Below, one piece after another: positions 9,273 through 32,259 of a stretch of DNA of 32,504 bases (position 1 is its first letter; each line of letters starts with the position of its first letter). Origin of the DNA: Pseudomonadota bacterium. Its GTDB lineage: Bacteria; Pseudomonadota; Gammaproteobacteria; Steroidobacterales; Steroidobacteraceae. Where the stretch lies: assembly GCA_947453225.1 (NCBI GenBank), contig CANGFV010000011.1, forward strand, positions 1-32,504. The letters are read 5' to 3'. The translations under genes and the position numbers were made by a program. Below the pieces are notes generated by a model. The model was not told the DNA's origin. It worked only from the letters and a program-made list of their open reading frames with translations, and did no database searches.

Positions 9273-9883
9273 TGCGTGTGGTGCTTGCTACTAATAACGC
9301 CGGTAAGTTGCGTGAGTTACAGGCGATGTTGCAGCCCTTAGGGTTTGATGTGCTGCCTAAGTCGCAGTTCACCCGTGAAGAAGTCATCGAAGATGGCGAT
9401 AGTTTTGTTGCAAATGCACTGCTGAAAGCAAGACATGCGGCGCGCGTTTCAGGTTTGCCGGCCATTGCTGATGATTCGGGCATTGAAGTGGACGCGTTAC
9501 ACGGCGCCCCTGGAATTTATTCAGCGCGTTATGCTGGGGTAAATGCCAGTGATGCAGATAATCTCAACACACTATTGCATGCATTAAATGATGTTGAAGA
9601 TAAGGCGCGTACTGCGCGTTATCGGTGTGCGTTAGTGTATGTGCGCCATGCAAAAGATGAAAACCCGATAATCTGTGAGGCCAGTTGGGAAGGACGTATT
9701 ACGCGGTATACACAAGGTGCGGGCGGCTTTGGTTACGACCCTATTTTTTGGTTGTCTGAGTATGGCTGTACCGCCGCAGAACTCAGTGCCGAGCTGAAAA
9801 ACAGCATCAGCCATCGCGGTCAGGCGTTGCAGCAATTATTGCGCGCTTTATCTAATGCTTCCGCTGGGTCTGCGTTGTGCTAG
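9272..9883 (+). CDS. rdgB: XTP/dITP diphosphohydrolase (RdgB/HAM1)
   Basis: The enzyme hydrolyses non-canonical purine triphosphates (dITP, XTP) to monophosphates, keeping them out of DNA and RNA. The 203 residues match the family. Signature segments: ATNNAGKLRELQAML near the N-terminus, the ADDSGIEVDALHGAPGIYSARYAG catalytic region, and GAGGFGYDPIF and SHRGQAL near the C-terminus. It overlaps rph by 1 nt and hemW by 7 nt, so rph-rdgB-hemW is one translationally coupled operon, as in many beta- and gammaproteobacteria. Confidence 0.96.
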   Translation: MRVVLATNNAGKLRELQAMLQPLGFDVLPKSQFTREEVIEDGDSFVANALLKARHAARVSGLPAIADDSGIEVDALHGAPGIYSARYAGVNASDADNLNTLLHALNDVEDKARTARYRCALVYVRHAKDENPIICEASWEGRITRYTQGAGGFGYDPIFWLSEYGCTAAELSAELKNSISHRGQALQQLLRALSNASAGSALC

Positions 9884-11022
9884 TTGCGCCACCATTGGCG
9901 TTGTATGTCCATTTTCCATGGTGTGTACAAAAGTGCCCCTACTGCGATTTCAATTCTCATAAAGCGCCCGGGCAGTTGCCCGAACAACAGTACATTAGTG
10001 CGTTGCTGGAAGATTTTGCGCGTGATGTTATCGGGCACGAGCATCGACCATTGGTGTCTATTTTTATGGGTGGCGGGACGCCGAGCCTTTTTAGTCCAGA
10101 AAGTATTGCGCACTTATTAGAAGAGATAAAAAAACAAATACCAGTCAGTGAGACTTTAGAAGTTACGCTTGAAGCTAATCCGGGCACCATTGAACATGGG
10201 CGATTTGCAGGTTATCGCGATGCGGGTATCAATAGAGTGTCCTTGGGTGCGCAAAGTTTTGATTCAGCGCAGCTGACTAAGCTGGGGCGTATTCATGGCA
10301 GTGACGATATTGCGGTGGCGGTAGATGAGCTCAGAAAAGCAGGTATTGATAACTTCAATTTAGATTTGATGTATGGGCTGTCTGGGCAGACGCTCAGCGA
10401 AGCATTGTCAGATTTGCGTCAGGCCATTGCATTGCAGCCGACACATTTATCGCACTATCAATTAACGCTTGAGCCCGGTACGCCATTTTTTCATCGACCG
10501 CCGCAATTACCAGATGATGAGCAGTGTTTTGCGATGCAGCTTGAATGTCAGGCGCTGTTGGCTGCGGCGGGTTATCAGCACTATGAAGTGTCTGCTTATG
10601 CTCAATCAGGCTGTCGGTCAGTGCATAACTTAAATTATTGGCAGTTCGGTGATTACTTTGGCATTGGCGCTGGGGCGCACGGCAAATTGACTCACAACGC
10701 TCAAGTGGTGCGTACTGAGCGTGTGAAACCACCTCGGCAATACTTAGCTGCTTCAGTGTCGCAGCGCCTGATACGGTATGAGCCGGTCAATGAAACAGAG
10801 TTACCGTTTGAATTCATGCTCAATGCGTTGCGCTTACAGGATGGATTTACTCAGTCATTGTTTGAGTTGCGCACGGGCTTGCTGTGGTCGAGTATTGAGT
10901 CGCGCGTGATGCTGGCTGAGCAGCGGGGATTGCTAGTGAAAGAGGTGGATCAGCGTTGGGTGCCCACTGCGTTGGGGCGGCAATTTCTCAACGATTTGGT
11001 TTCCTTGTTTTTAGCGAATTGA
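9877..11022 (+). CDS. hemW: HemW, radical SAM heme chaperone
   Basis: HemW resembles coproporphyrinogen III dehydrogenase (HemN) but acts as a heme chaperone delivering heme to respiratory proteins. The radical-SAM cluster motif is CVQKCPYC (C16, C20, C23), spaced CX3CX2C as in HemW/HemN; GGGTPSL follows. At 381 aa it has the HemW length and lacks the extra N-terminal part of HemN. The start is GTG at 9877, overlapping the end of rdgB, so re-initiation is expected. A 5-bp hairpin (11041-11055) follows the gene, but it has no U-tract. Confidence 0.94.
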   Translation: MLVAPPLALYVHFPWCVQKCPYCDFNSHKAPGQLPEQQYISALLEDFARDVIGHEHRPLVSIFMGGGTPSLFSPESIAHLLEEIKKQIPVSETLEVTLEANPGTIEHGRFAGYRDAGINRVSLGAQSFDSAQLTKLGRIHGSDDIAVAVDELRKAGIDNFNLDLMYGLSGQTLSEALSDLRQAIALQPTHLSHYQLTLEPGTPFFHRPPQLPDDEQCFAMQLECQALLAAAGYQHYEVSAYAQSGCRSVHNLNYWQFGDYFGIGAGAHGKLTHNAQVVRTERVKPPRQYLAASVSQRLIRYEPVNETELPFEFMLNALRLQDGFTQSLFELRTGLLWSSIESRVMLAEQRGLLVKEVDQRWVPTALGRQFLNDLVSLFLAN

Positions 11023-11342
11023 GCGCTCATCGAAATTGTTAGGCGAACCGCGCCTGAGGGTCGGAATCGCTAAGTCCTTGTTCGGCCTGAAAATGTGATT
11101 TAGATCGCGTTTTTTCTTGACATATTACAAATCTATCAAACCTGCCGACGGTTTTTATGCACAATCCAGATGCCTTTCATATGAGATAAGGCCTTGGTGC
11201 CGATTTGGCAGGTGATACCTCAAGCGACGACTGTAAGTTATTGTTTTATATGATTAATGATGGTGGTTAATTTTTGACCACACCTGCAAAATATGTTCAA
11301 AGATGCCAACTTGGCGATTTTATGACACGGTAATGCACAGAC

Positions 11343-11365
11343 TTATCCACAGCTTTTGTGGATAA
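11343..11365. repeat. Inverted pair of perfect DnaA boxes
   Basis: TTATCCACA, five bases (GCTTT), then TGTGGATAA: two consensus high-affinity DnaA boxes facing each other on opposite strands. The two half-sites are exact inverted copies, so the RNA could also form a 9-bp hairpin. Confidence 0.85.
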
Positions 11366-11453
11366 CCCGTATGGGCCTATGCGGGGTGCTGGGGATGGGT
11401 TGTTGTCGCTAGCTGAGCTGAGTGTGAGTTGTTATCCGTTGCTGCAGTTTTCT

Positions 11454-11482
11454 TGCGCAAGTGCAAAGGCACGGCTACACTG
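11454..11482 (+). promoter_or_regulatory. Probable rpmE promoter
   Basis: TTGCGC (11454-11459), a 17-nt spacer and TACACT (11477-11482) give a reasonable sigma70 promoter. It overlaps a 10-bp palindrome CTTGCGCAAG (11452-11461), which could be an operator. The expected start near 11489 leaves a leader of about 38 nt. Confidence 0.5.
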
Positions 11483-11504
11483 CGCGCCCCATTTTTCTGG
11501 AACC

Positions 11505-11517
11505 GGGCGTTGCGCCC
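11505..11517 (+). promoter_or_regulatory. Hairpin in rpmE leader
   Basis: GGGCG-TTG-CGCCC forms a compact 5-bp GC stem ending 9 nt before the rpmE ATG, where a Shine-Dalgarno sequence would lie; no clear SD is seen. Autoregulatory leaders have been proposed for L31 genes in several bacterial groups, so a ribosomal-protein-binding structure is possible but unproven here. Confidence 0.4.
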
Positions 11518-11526
11518 AATACAGTC

Positions 11527-11727
11527 ATGAAAGCCGGCATTCATCCCGAATACAAAGACATCACCGTAACTTGCAGCTGCGGTAATGCATTCACCACTCG
11601 TTCAACGGGCAACAATTTGCAGTTGGAAGTGTGTTCTAACTGCCACCCGTTTTATACCGGTAAGCAAAAGACGGTTGATACCGGCGGTCGCGTCGATAAG
11701 TTCCGCAAGAAATACACTCGCGGCTGA
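11527..11727 (+). CDS. rpmE: 50S ribosomal protein bL31 (zinc-binding form)
   Basis: bL31 bridges the 50S and 30S subunits. The 66 residues starting at ATG 11527 ([12 protein letters not shown]) are standard for the family; the open frame extends 22 codons upstream, but that part crosses the predicted promoter and leader hairpin and is not conserved. Cysteines C16, C18, C36 and C39 complete the zinc-binding (C+) type, which is usually replaced by a zinc-free paralogue under zinc starvation. A strong terminator follows, so the gene is monocistronic. Confidence 0.96.
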
Positions 11728-12651: not shown

Positions 12652-13269
12652 ATGATCGACACCTTAAGCAAGGCGGCAGCACAAATGAGCATCTCGCTTA
12701 GTGCTGCTCAAGGTGAATCACTGCTGAAATTATTAAATGAGCTAAATGATTGGAATCAGCGCATTAATCTGACTGCAATCCGCGATCCGCAGCAGCAACT
12801 GAGTAAACATCTGCTTGATAGTTTGTCGATTCAGTCGTATTTGCAGGGTCGTTACATTGCCGATATTGGCACCGGCGCCGGCTTTCCTGGATTGCCTCTA
12901 GCGGTGATTAATCCAGATAAAGAGTTTTTATTGATTGATTCTATTAATAAGAAATTACGCTTTGTCGAACATGCCGCTGCAGTGATGCAATTGTCCAATG
13001 TGTCTGTACTACACACGCGCGCTCAGGATTACCGGCCTGTGCGTCTATTTGACTGTGTGGTCTCGCGCGCTATGGGCTCGATTGAAAACTTTGTGCTGTG
13101 GTGTGGTCATCTGTGTGCACCGCAGGGACGTTTACTGGCCATGAAAGGACGTTATCCCGAGGAGGAGTTAGCCGCAGTGCCTAAAGGCTGGCGGGTGGTC
13201 GCAGTACATGAATTAAAGATTCCTGGACTAGACGAACAGCGCCATCTTGTGGAACTCTGCCGGACTTAA
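12652..13269 (+). CDS. rsmG: 16S rRNA (guanine527-N7)-methyltransferase RsmG
   Basis: RsmG (GidB) makes m7G527 in 16S rRNA; its loss gives low-level streptomycin resistance in several bacteria. The 205 aa are full length. The SAM-binding loop IADIGTGAGFPGLPLAV lies at about residues 69-85, and NDWNQRINLTAIRDP near residue 40 is the usual N-terminal signature. It is followed 61 nt later by parA, matching the widespread rsmG-parA-parB order. In most relatives mnmG precedes rsmG; here rpmE and a cytochrome c gene do. Confidence 0.96.
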   Translation: MIDTLSKAAAQMSISLSAAQGESLLKLLNELNDWNQRINLTAIRDPQQQLSKHLLDSLSIQSYLQGRYIADIGTGAGFPGLPLAVINPDKEFLLIDSINKKLRFVEHAAAVMQLSNVSVLHTRAQDYRPVRLFDCVVSRAMGSIENFVLWCGHLCAPQGRLLAMKGRYPEEELAAVPKGWRVVAVHELKIPGLDEQRHLVELCRT

Positions 13270-13330
13270 GTGCGCTTTTAATGATAGCTTTAAGGTCAAC
13301 TACCGTTCGTTGTTCGCAAGTCGGCATTTC

Positions 13331-14137
13331 ATGAAACGTGTCATCGCAGTAACCAATCAAAAAGGCGGTGTGGGTAAGACCACCACAAGCGTCAATTTGA
13401 CCGCCTCGTTGGCGGCGACGCAGCGTCGTGTTTTATTGATTGATATGGATCCACAAGGCAATGCCACCATGGGCTGTGGAGTTGAAAAGCGCGGACTACA
13501 GCATTCACTCACAGAGGTGTTGTTAGGCGAATGCACCATTGAGCAAGCGCTACAGCCAATAGAGCACAGCAAATTTACGCTGTTGCCTGGCAATCAAGAT
13601 TTGGTTGCTGCCGAAGTGCAGTTGACCCGCAGCTCTGGTGCCGAAACTCGTCTGCGTGAAGTGTTAGCGCCCATCCGTTCGCAATTTGATGTCATCGTCA
13701 TTGATTGCCCACCCTCGCTGAACATGCTGACGATTAATGCCTTAGTCGCTGCAGATTCGGTACTGATTCCGATGCAATGTGAGTATTACGCGCTTGAAGG
13801 GCTGACAGCGCTGGTTGAGACCATTGAGCAAATTAAGGCCAGCGCTAATCCCGTGCTGCATATCGAGGGCATTCTGCGCACCATGTACGATCCTCGGAAT
13901 AACTTGGCCAATGAAGTGTCGCGCCAATTAATTGAGCATTTTGGTGAGCAGGTGTATCGCACTATGATTCCGCGCAATGTGCGTTTGGCCGAAGCGCCGA
14001 GTCATGGTCAGCCCGCGCTGGTTTACGATAAAGACTCCCGTGGCGCGTTGGCTTATTTGGCGCTGGCGGGAGAAATGCTACGTCGAGAGGATGATCGAAT
14101 GGCGGGGTTGGCGCTGGCGCGCGGCACTGAGAAATAG
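13331..14137 (+). CDS. parA: Chromosome-partitioning ATPase ParA (Soj)
   Basis: ParA binds DNA non-specifically as an ATP dimer and moves ParB-parS complexes to segregate replicated origins. The start chosen is ATG 13331 (MKRVIAVTNQ), giving 268 aa and the deviant Walker A KGGVGKTT at 11-18; the open frame begins 28 codons earlier inside rsmG, but that extension is not family-like. DMDPQGNAT and the VIDCPPSLNMLTINAL Walker B region are intact. No N-terminal HTH, so this is the chromosomal (short) type. parB lies 76 nt downstream. Confidence 0.96.
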   Translation: MKRVIAVTNQKGGVGKTTTSVNLTASLAATQRRVLLIDMDPQGNATMGCGVEKRGLQHSLTEVLLGECTIEQALQPIEHSKFTLLPGNQDLVAAEVQLTRSSGAETRLREVLAPIRSQFDVIVIDCPPSLNMLTINALVAADSVLIPMQCEYYALEGLTALVETIEQIKASANPVLHIEGILRTMYDPRNNLANEVSRQLIEHFGEQVYRTMIPRNVRLAEAPSHGQPALVYDKDSRGALAYLALAGEMLRREDDRMAGLALARGTEK

Positions 14138-14213
14138 ATTTCGGCTGGAGTCTGCTCGGTCTACGCGATTACACTGCGCTATTATTTATTGAACACTAAT
14201 AACTGAAAAAATT

Positions 14214-15116
14214 ATGGTCACTAAGCGTTCTAGTTTAGGGCGTGGACTCGGTGCCTTACTGAGCCAAACTTCCCCAGCTGCTCAGCCACAAGTTGCTTCA
14301 CCGACAGCGAGCAAGGATGGCGATTTAGCGAAGTTGCCAATCGATTTGCTGCAGCGCGGTAAATATCAGCCGCGTATTGATATGCGGCAGGAGTCGCTGC
14401 AGGAACTGGCCGATTCCATCAAAGTACAGGGCATTATTCAGCCGATTGTTGTGCGTCCACTCGGTGATCAAACCCCCGGGCAGCCCCTACGCTATGAAAT
14501 TATTGCCGGTGAGCGACGCTGGCGTGCGGCGCAGTTGGCAGGATTGCATGAGGTACCTGCGCTCATTCGCCGTATTCCGGATGAGTCCGCCATTGCCATG
14601 GCGCTCATTGAGAACATCCAGCGTGAAAATCTCAATCCCTTAGAAGAAGCCAAGGCACTCGCCCGTTTAATCAGCGAGTTCGAGATGACTCACCAAACTG
14701 CCGCCGAGGCGGTGGGGCGCTCGCGTGCGGCGGTGTCTAACTTATTGCGTCTCTTGGATTTAGCCGACGAAGTGAAGCAAATGTTGGAGCAGGGCGAGCT
14801 GGAGATGGGCCATGCCCGCGCTCTGCTTGGCCTCAGTGGTGCCCGTCGACAGGTTGAAGTGGGTGCCTTGGTAGTGAAAAAAGGCTTGTCGGTGCGAGAT
14901 ACCGAAGCGCTGGTTCGCCGCATGGAAAAGAGTGAAACTGCACCTGATGGTCCCTCGCCACGCCCTGATCCTGACATTAAGCGATTGGAAAGCGAATTGG
15001 CTGAAAAACTGGGTGCCAAAGTCCAGTTGCAACATAGTGGCAAGGGCGGCGGCAAGTTGGTGATCAGCTATAACAGTCTGGATGAGCTAGACGGTATTTT
15101 GGTGCGAATTAAATAA
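14214..15116 (+). CDS. parB: Chromosome-partitioning protein ParB (Spo0J)
   Basis: ParB is a CTP-dependent DNA clamp that loads at parS sites near the origin and recruits SMC. The 300 aa contain the N-terminal SLGRGLGALL box that interacts with ParA, the CTPase motif GERRWRAAQLAG (99-110), ENIQRENLNPLEEA, a helix-turn-helix at about 160-182 (TAAEAVGRSRAAVSNLLRLL), and a C-terminal dimerisation domain. ATG 14214 gives the normal N-terminus. I could not find a parS site by eye in this window. Confidence 0.96.
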   Translation: MVTKRSSLGRGLGALLSQTSPAAQPQVASPTASKDGDLAKLPIDLLQRGKYQPRIDMRQESLQELADSIKVQGIIQPIVVRPLGDQTPGQPLRYEIIAGERRWRAAQLAGLHEVPALIRRIPDESAIAMALIENIQRENLNPLEEAKALARLISEFEMTHQTAAEAVGRSRAAVSNLLRLLDLADEVKQMLEQGELEMGHARALLGLSGARRQVEVGALVVKKGLSVRDTEALVRRMEKSETAPDGPSPRPDPDIKRLESELAEKLGAKVQLQHSGKGGGKLVISYNSLDELDGILVRIK

Positions 15117-31497: not shown

Positions 31498-32259
31498 TTA
31501 GCGCGTTGGAACCGCCCAGGGCAGGGCAACCTGTCGCAAGCCATCTTGAGTGTCTGGTTCTACATCTTTAATAGCAGTAGCTAAGGCTGCGGTCCCGTTG
31601 CTGGCGTTTATCCAAAGTTGTCCTTCTAATTGACCTTGAGTGTTAACGCGGCCTTTGAATAACACGGCGCGTCCTGCACCGATGCCGCCGAAATAAACCT
31701 CATCGCCATGGGTTTGACCATAAACGGTTAGCGTTTCGTTGTTTTGGTTGATGATCAGCTTGCCATCTATGGCATCAAATGTTTGTTTAAGGTGTAGCGT
31801 CACAGGCGCACTGAAATGATCAGGGCTGTTCGCGGTTAGTTGCCAGAAGCCAGAGACATCTGCATTGTCAGTCGATGATTGTTCGATAAAACGGTAGGTT
31901 TTATTAAGCTGAGCCGAAAACGGAAAGTGGTGTACTTTGCCCTGAGGGTCAGTCAATTGCAGTTCACCTTTGAGTGCATTACGACTAATGCTGGCTTTGA
32001 GTTGTCCGGCACCTGCGGGCAGTGTTGCGTATAAATTGTTGTCTTTCACCTGGACTTCAGTTGCAGGCAGCATTTCATCGTTTTGTAATAGCCAGACTTG
32101 CGTTGCTTCATTTTCGGTAGTAACACGTAATTGGAGGGGAATTTCTCCGCCATTAATCTCAATGGTCGCACGGTAGTCACCAGTCAGGGGCGTGGTGAGT
32201 TTGGCGCAAGCCGACAATAACAGGGTGAACAAAAGCAGGCAGTGTTTAAGGTGGGTCAT
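31498..32259 (-). CDS. Putative lipoprotein, unknown function
   Basis: I do not recognise the family. The 253 aa begin with a lipoprotein signal peptide, basic/hydrophobic then LLSAC with the lipidated Cys at position 18. The mature part looks like an all-beta protein with many short amphipathic strands (GDYRATIEI, GKLIINQNNETLTVYGQ, GQLEGQLWINASNG) and few charged helices. Residue 19 is Ala, not Asp, so outer-membrane sorting is expected by the Lol +2 rule. It is upstream of yajQ on the same strand and divergent from the partial ABC gene. Confidence 0.82.
   Translation of the reverse strand: MTHLKHCLLLFTLLLSACAKLTTPLTGDYRATIEINGGEIPLQLRVTTENEATQVWLLQNDEMLPATEVQVKDNNLYATLPAGAGQLKASISRNALKGELQLTDPQGKVHHFPFSAQLNKTYRFIEQSSTDNADVSGFWQLTANSPDHFSAPVTLHLKQTFDAIDGKLIINQNNETLTVYGQTHGDEVYFGGIGAGRAVLFKGRVNTQGQLEGQLWINASNGTAALATAIKDVEPDTQDGLRQVALPWAVPTR

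Follow-up and report, generated by a model that had tools for sequence, protein, structure and literature searches.

The hemW-rpmE intergenic region

The window, that is, the whole stretch of DNA analysed (32,504 nucleotides), is contig C11 of a genome assembled into 116 contigs and 1.86 Mb. Named from their Pfam domains, its genes include recG, a RidA-type gene, spoT, gmk, yicC, a PP2C phosphatase gene, rph, rdgB and hemW, followed beyond a gap by rpmE, a cytochrome c gene, rsmG, parA, parB, the atp operon, glmU and glmS. An open reading frame of 253 amino acids (31498-32259, minus strand) had no Pfam match at E 0.001. The nearest named relatives of the ParB protein were two MAGs (88 and 83% identity), after which came records that included Steroidobacteraceae, Steroidobacter and Woeseia.

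The hemW stop (11022) and the rpmE start (11527) are separated by 504 bp, in agreement with the gene-free gap of about 500 bp reported in an earlier note on this DNA, which had drawn attention to a cluster of DnaA boxes there. The gene orientations given in that note (leftward left of 7.6 kb, rightward to 26.8 kb) were as claimed, and neither mnmG nor dnaA stands beside the boxes, these genes being located on contigs C66 and C7, respectively. Instead, rsmG, parA and parB follow (12652-15116), with mnmG absent upstream of them. The order hemW-rpmE-cytochrome c-rsmG-parAB is also contiguous in the two closest relatives (L038 and L039), and in L042, a further relative that was fetched, rsmG-parAB occurs without hemW and rpmE.

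The AT-rich stretches described earlier are present locally, but the gap as a whole is just 53% A+T, slightly above the rest of the window, where GC content is mostly 0.45-0.53. The reported scarcity of GATC was evident, with one site in the gap compared with 4.1 per kb across the window. An Rfam scan of positions 10900-11700 matched no RNA element at E values up to 1, and this reading of the gap was rejected. A sigma-70-like promoter was sought in the gap and none was found; with no promoter-like site, and with one terminator-like site where 0.6 were expected, a plain promoter or terminator was also rejected. The features of the gap and its two neighbours are as follows, with offsets counted from DnaA box I.

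9877-11022, plus strand: hemW (radical SAM, HemN_C), left neighbour of the box cluster
11155-11163, plus strand: far DnaA box TTATGCACA, offset 202, oriented as boxes II and III
11234-11246, plus strand: predicted IHF-consensus site TAAGTTATTGTTT, one mismatch to TAAnnnnTTGATW, offset 119
11265-11279, no strand assigned: putative Fis-consensus palindrome GGTTAATTTTTGACC, 0 mismatches to GNTYAAWWWTTRANC, offset 86
11331-11339, plus strand: DnaA box III, TAATGCACA, one mismatch, start 12 bp from the box II start
11336-11365, minus strand: match to the core pattern TTATNCACA-N5-TGTGNATAA-N3-TGTG, 30 bp, 0 mismatches
11343-11351, plus strand: DnaA box II, TTATCCACA, start 14 bp from the box I start
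11357-11365, minus strand: DnaA box I, TTATCCACA, opposed to boxes II and III
11527-11727, plus strand: rpmE (ribosomal protein L31), right neighbour of the box cluster

DnaA boxes and the 30-bp core

A pattern scan of the window recovered the three exact TTATNCACA boxes of the earlier note, at 11155-11163 (+), 11343-11351 (+) and 11357-11365 (-), together with its near match at 11331. The window contains four exact boxes in all, a mildly unusual number (1.33 expected on average; eight of 100 shuffled sequences reached four). The core pattern was matched once in the window and in none of 100 shuffled sequences, even when up to three mismatches were allowed. It is the arrangement of the boxes, rather than their number, that is not due to chance.

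Read on the minus strand, boxes I, II and III have start offsets of 14 and 12 bp, with box I facing the other two. The same offsets and orientations were found in both E. coli DARS sites, DARS1 (2108+, 2122- and 2134- in the fetched stretch L217) and DARS2 (1636+, 1650- and 1662- in L218), which the core pattern matched at one and two mismatches, respectively. No match was detected at up to four mismatches in the fetched E. coli oriC, datA and priA-rpmE stretches or in the dnaA region of the genome studied here. According to a passage of PMC5742627, DARS1 and DARS2 share equally spaced boxes I-III with an opposed box I, and it is this structure, three boxes at fixed spacing with box I opposed to boxes II and III, that is found and conserved at the present locus. 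By analogy with the E. coli sites, the hemW-rpmE gap very likely holds a DARS (DnaA-reactivating sequence), where ADP-DnaA is returned to ATP-DnaA.

Conservation of the core

The core was present in 281 of 296 genomes of the order at up to two mismatches, the other 15 having no core anywhere at that threshold, and in 309 of 369 genomes drawn from the class, five of which belong to the order. A reversed-pattern control gave zero matches in every row of the order scan and throughout the class scan; the match counts of some genomes include palindromic self-matches. When 2,074,000 bases of three single-contig relatives (G030, G013 and G062) were sampled, the only matches were three cores on the rpmE side, the core near priA in G062, and two palindromic self-matches.

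Of 59 relatives, the present genome counted, 54 gave a HemW match. In the best 30 of these 54 hemW loci, the present one included, the core was located between hemW and rpmE in every case, with zero or one mismatch, and among the places of the matches listed for the other 24 hemW genomes it lies beside hemW in at least 12. A separate placement of the cores found the hemW position adjoined by a core in 23 of 23 genomes. Because the loci are akin to each other, counts over loci are not independent. The check on relatives suggested in the earlier note, which had named a lack of box conservation in close relatives as the outcome that would speak against an origin, gave the opposite result, namely strong conservation; the results below support the view that this conservation is due to something other than origin function.

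In three more distant genomes of those 24 (G043 and G056 of family f9 and G048 of family f14), the fetched hemW regions were without a core at up to four mismatches, and the core stands upstream of priA instead. The rpmE-side site may have been lost there or may be a late gain elsewhere. In four other genomes (G062, G099, G105 and G178), the core is between rdgB and rpmE with no hemW match between these genes, so that rpmE is a steadier neighbour of the core than hemW. Seven genomes of family f12 (L223-L229) have a common core match with two mismatches, GTATCCACATTTTCTGTGGAAAAACYTGTG, which in L223 is located between the gene for the ATP-synthase epsilon subunit and an amidase gene.

Accessory sites and their geometry

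The 30 hemW loci were compared by anchoring each on its core and orienting it by hemW. A Fis-type 15-mer with at most two mismatches was detected at offset 85-87 in 28 of the 30 loci (null mean 0.02 in 500 shuffles), and an IHF-type 13-mer at offset 118-122 in 23 loci with at most one mismatch (null mean 0.022) and in 29 with at most two. At offset 200-219 the far DnaA box was exact in 24 loci, had one mismatch in five and two mismatches in one. In the null, single bases were shuffled and the loci were treated as independent although they are related; over the 250 bases compared, L038 and L039 duplicate L009 and L010. The DNA between the core, the Fis-type site, the IHF-type site and the far box showed little conservation. 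The IHF-type site of the present locus has one mismatch to the consensus (TAAnnnnTTGATW, as given in an excerpt of PMC8682772), and that of one locus from the same genus has three.

Over the 30 loci, the core lay anywhere between 190 and 542 bp from the hemW match and between 105 and 246 bp from the rpmE match, whereas its distance to the Fis-type site was fixed at 85-87 bp, which indicates that the conserved unit is the element itself and not an rpmE promoter. The corresponding offsets in E. coli DARS2 were 93 and 109 for IHF-type sites and 211 for a DnaA box. As in DARS2, consensus matches at the present locus predict an IHF site at a defined spacing from the core.

Assignment of the palindrome at 11265 to Fis is the weakest step of this reconstruction. 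We take GNTYAAWWWTTRANC to be the Fis consensus, which would make the palindrome TGGTCA-AAAAA-TGACCA a Fis-type site, and it could belong to another regulator. A scan of E. coli DARS2 with this consensus gave a best match of three mismatches and did not recover the known sites, so the scan is a weak guide and a Fis site beyond the IHF-type site could be overlooked here.

Location of the chromosome origin

The earlier note had proposed the box cluster as oriC or as a DnaA-binding regulatory locus. The regulatory part of this proposal is in keeping with the DARS-type core, but the origin part was not supported, since the skew minimum is by dnaA in two relatives and a better candidate exists between dnaA and dnaN in the present genome. 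Within the window, all 1-kb segments between about 7 and 28 kb had positive GC skew, and the values left and right of position 11250 were +0.069 and +0.081, with no sign change at 11.2 kb.

The GC-skew check called for in the earlier note was run by sampling skew in the three single-contig relatives, and the minimum was located by dnaA, not at the hemW-rpmE site, in two of them. G030 is a single contig of 3,467,246 bp in which 0.21 Mb separates the hemW-rpmE core (3.2505 Mb) from dnaA (3.462 Mb). All 10-kb bins between 3.15 and 3.43 Mb had negative skew; from there to 3.464 Mb the skew was weak and its sign varied, and ten of ten 20-kb samples between 0.02 and 1.6 Mb were positive. Cumulative skew was lowest at the last sampled base (3.464 Mb), which places the minimum by dnaA and the contig's end. 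In G062, a genome of another family (3,105,498 bp), cumulative skew over 2.52-2.84 Mb was lowest in the bin at 2.69-2.70 Mb, with a second dip at 2.74-2.75 Mb nearly as low. The rpmE-side core (2.596 Mb) is 0.09 Mb from dnaA (2.686 Mb) in this genome. Its coarse skew samples were noisy, and those at 0.50 and 3.06 Mb had an unexpected sign. The skew of G013 (contig C1, 4,649,652 bp) was weak and uninformative, as its sign change at about 2.72-2.85 Mb fits neither dnaA (2.351 Mb) nor the hemW-rpmE site (2.437 Mb), being about 0.3-0.5 Mb from both.

The dnaA-dnaN gap of the present genome (contig C7, L006 7109-7337) is 229 bp long, has an A+T content of 73% and contains three exact DnaA boxes, and one further exact box was found near the dnaA start. 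This is a classical origin layout and likely the oriC of this genome. Six of the 30 fetched dnaA loci (the gene with up to 1.5 kb on each side) had no exact DnaA box. The chromosome origin is most likely at dnaA, and the box cluster beside rpmE is very probably not the chromosome origin.

Alternative explanations

If the hemW-rpmE gap were oriC, DnaA would open the DNA and replication would start there. An origin would be consistent with the three exact DnaA boxes and their strong conservation, with the local AT-rich stretches and the IHF-type site, and with parAB lying only a few kilobases away. This explanation is nevertheless very improbable, given that the skew minimum lies beside dnaA in G030 and G062, that skew in G030 is negative across 3.25 Mb, and that window skew does not switch at the boxes. 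The core pattern is absent from E. coli oriC, two families (f9 and f14) lack the core at hemW, and the three boxes of the dnaA-dnaN gap are set in DNA of 73% A+T compared with 53% in the hemW-rpmE gap. A datA-like site, at which DnaA boxes and an IHF site inactivate or titrate DnaA, is likewise very improbable. DnaA boxes flank the IHF-type site on both sides, as an excerpt of PMC5742627 gives for datA, and the core is 32-212 kb from dnaA where both share one contig. However, both DARS sites match the core pattern, whereas the E. coli datA stretch that was fetched does not at up to four mismatches, and the opposed pair of boxes I and II is called a prominent feature of DARS in the same excerpt.

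It is also conceivable, though hardly to be expected, that DnaA acts at the locus as a transcription factor on the promoter of rpmE and, at a second site, of priA. Cores are indeed located upstream of both genes, and the copy at priA in the present genome is 33 bp from the priA start. The variable core-rpmE distance, which reaches about 0.7 kb in two class loci (L279 and L280), argues against this explanation, as do the failure to find a sigma-70-like promoter in the gap and the presence of other class cores beside different genes, such as ksgA and xseA. Promoter control and a DARS role could coexist.

A second core at priA and distribution in the class

The genome studied here contains a second DARS-type core on another contig.

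C20:24365-24394 (L277 1501-1530): second DARS-type core, one mismatch, 33 bp from the priA start, with pntB beyond

Among 26 such second loci, hand-chosen from the matches listed and including one (L287) from the class scan, priA stands beside the core in 24; the exceptions are L311 and L316, the latter in a stretch that ends at the contig's end. In a set of 29 priA loci, which leaves out L311, L316 and L325 and adds six best-match loci, the Fis-type site was found at offset 85-87 in 16, the IHF-type site at 118-122 with one mismatch or fewer in nine, and an exact far box at 193-197 in 16. In the own genus (L276 and L277), the priA cores have a weak Fis-type match at a shifted position and lack the IHF-type site and far box. 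No priA-side core was detected in G030 at up to two mismatches.

The rpmE-side and priA-side cores flank dnaA in G013 (85 and 211 kb away), G023 (94 and 199 kb), G062 (90 and 102 kb) and G099 (68 kb each). A counter-example is G003, a genome of the own genus, in which both cores are on its contig C11, 96 kb apart, and dnaA is on its contig C8. The genes priA and rpmE are neighbours in E. coli; the two cores are on opposite sides of dnaA in four of the five genomes judged, at 68-211 kb. A DARS in the E. coli priA-rpmE gap, from which cores at both genes could have descended, was looked for, and none was found there at up to four mismatches.

Of 30 class loci (L279-L308), two are at hemW-rpmE, nine have priA in the DNA fetched around them, in one case at a distance of about 1.2 kb, and the remaining 19 are elsewhere, including beside ksgA (three) and xseA (one). 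The cores that adjoin ksgA are from genomes of family f81 (L303, L304 and L305), and in two of these, L304 and L305, a second core is located about 2.2 kb away.

A broader proposal, which we regard as tentative and on balance doubtful, is that DARS are class-wide rather than special to E. coli relatives, and that many genomes of the order have two of common design, at rpmE and priA, with a DNA-bending geometry (core, Fis-type site, IHF-type site, far box) unlike that of E. coli. The arrangement in G003 weakens this proposal. Cores near dnaA are copied soon after initiation and would, if the proposal is true, reactivate DnaA at a different time in the cell cycle from the distant E. coli sites.

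Partner proteins and proposed mechanism

Genes for the proteins expected to act at such a site were identified in the present genome with NCBIfam models: hda (TIGR03420, 233 bits, cut-off 194.8), ihfA for IHF-alpha (TIGR00987, 169 bits, cut-off 120.25), ihfB for IHF-beta (TIGR00988, 147.5 bits, cut-off 119.95) and fis (NF001659, 108.7 bits, cut-off 99). In E. coli, ADP-DnaA is made by RIDA, and DARS2 requires IHF and Fis, according to excerpts of PMC4245941 and PMC5742627.

On the E. coli model, ADP-DnaA would occupy boxes I and II head to head, with box III occupied alongside. DNA bending by IHF (at 11234-11246) and Fis (at 11265-11279) would fold the region of the far box (11155) against the core complex, whereupon ADP would be released from DnaA and apo-DnaA would take up ATP. 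The site would in this way offset the Hda-driven inactivation of DnaA (RIDA). What is observed here is a conserved set of sites in fixed geometry, in a genome that carries hda, ihfA, ihfB and fis; protein binding, nucleotide exchange and a cell-cycle role at hemW-rpmE we infer from E. coli. The position of the Fis-type site on the core side of the IHF-type site, together with the reversed far box, suggests that the looped complex would be built differently from that of E. coli.

Implications

The primary DARS paper is reportedly that of Fujimitsu (2009), and a paper on the head-to-head interaction is said to date from 2019. DARS as such are known, their control of DnaA having been worked out in E. 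coli, and what appears new in the present loci is their wider spread and the different placement of the putative Fis site. Conservation of the DARS2 core has been described as specific to gammaproteobacteria that are relatives of E. coli (PMC4245941), and PMC5742627 speaks of E. coli-proximal beta- or gammaproteobacteria. A search of titles and abstracts within the open-licence PMC scope returned no report of a DARS at hemW, rpmE or priA, or in Steroidobacterales, and no priority is claimed.

The core pattern, with its empty control and its matches in 309 of 369 class genomes, provides a simple way to map DARS, and such mapping could be used to ask if the ATP/ADP switch of DnaA is an ancestral trait. 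For structural work, a natural variant is offered by the invariant geometry and its displaced Fis-type site. For those who search for origins, the locus is a caution that clusters of DnaA boxes near parAB may be DARS and not oriC.

Comparison with known systems

E. coli oriC and datA resemble the hemW-rpmE site in combining DnaA boxes with an IHF site, as described in the oriC and datA literature (for datA, in an excerpt of PMC5742627), but differ from it in that the fetched stretches contain no DARS core at up to four mismatches. A DARS core has also been described in Vibrio cholerae and other relatives of E. coli, according to portions of PMC6090056 and PMC8682772. In those portions, the DARS-like sites of V. 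cholerae are reported at the uvrB and mutH positions, whereas the sites in the present order are elsewhere. Orthology with DARS1 or DARS2 by position was likewise not found in the genome studied here, where the two cores adjoin hemW-rpmE and priA, not uvrB or mutH.

E. coli DARS1, between bioD and uvrB, has the same core and is the closest in sequence, its box III being TAATACACA compared with TAATGCACA here. It differs in having no far box or IHF-type site in the 330 bases scanned, and in its location, which is upstream of uvrB and about 1.5 Mb away from oriC.

E. coli DARS2, which is situated between rppH and mutH, agrees in the arrangement of boxes I-III (offsets of 14 and 12 bp, box I opposed) and likewise has IHF-type sites some 90-120 bp from the core start and a DnaA box about 200-210 bp away. 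The rppH-mutH gap also holds a core copy with four mismatches (L218 1952-1981), about 0.3 kb from the DARS2 core and on the same strand. DARS2 has two IHF-type sites compared with one here, and the far box of the present locus is reversed relative to that of E. coli. The essential Fis site of DARS2 (FBS2-3) lies beyond the IHF sites, as inferred from excerpts of PMC4245941 and PMC8682772, whereas the Fis-type site predicted here is between the core and the IHF-type site. DARS2 is about 0.96 Mb from oriC, compared with 32-212 kb between core and dnaA in the 11 genomes in which both were found on one contig, a range in which fragmented assemblies favor short distances.
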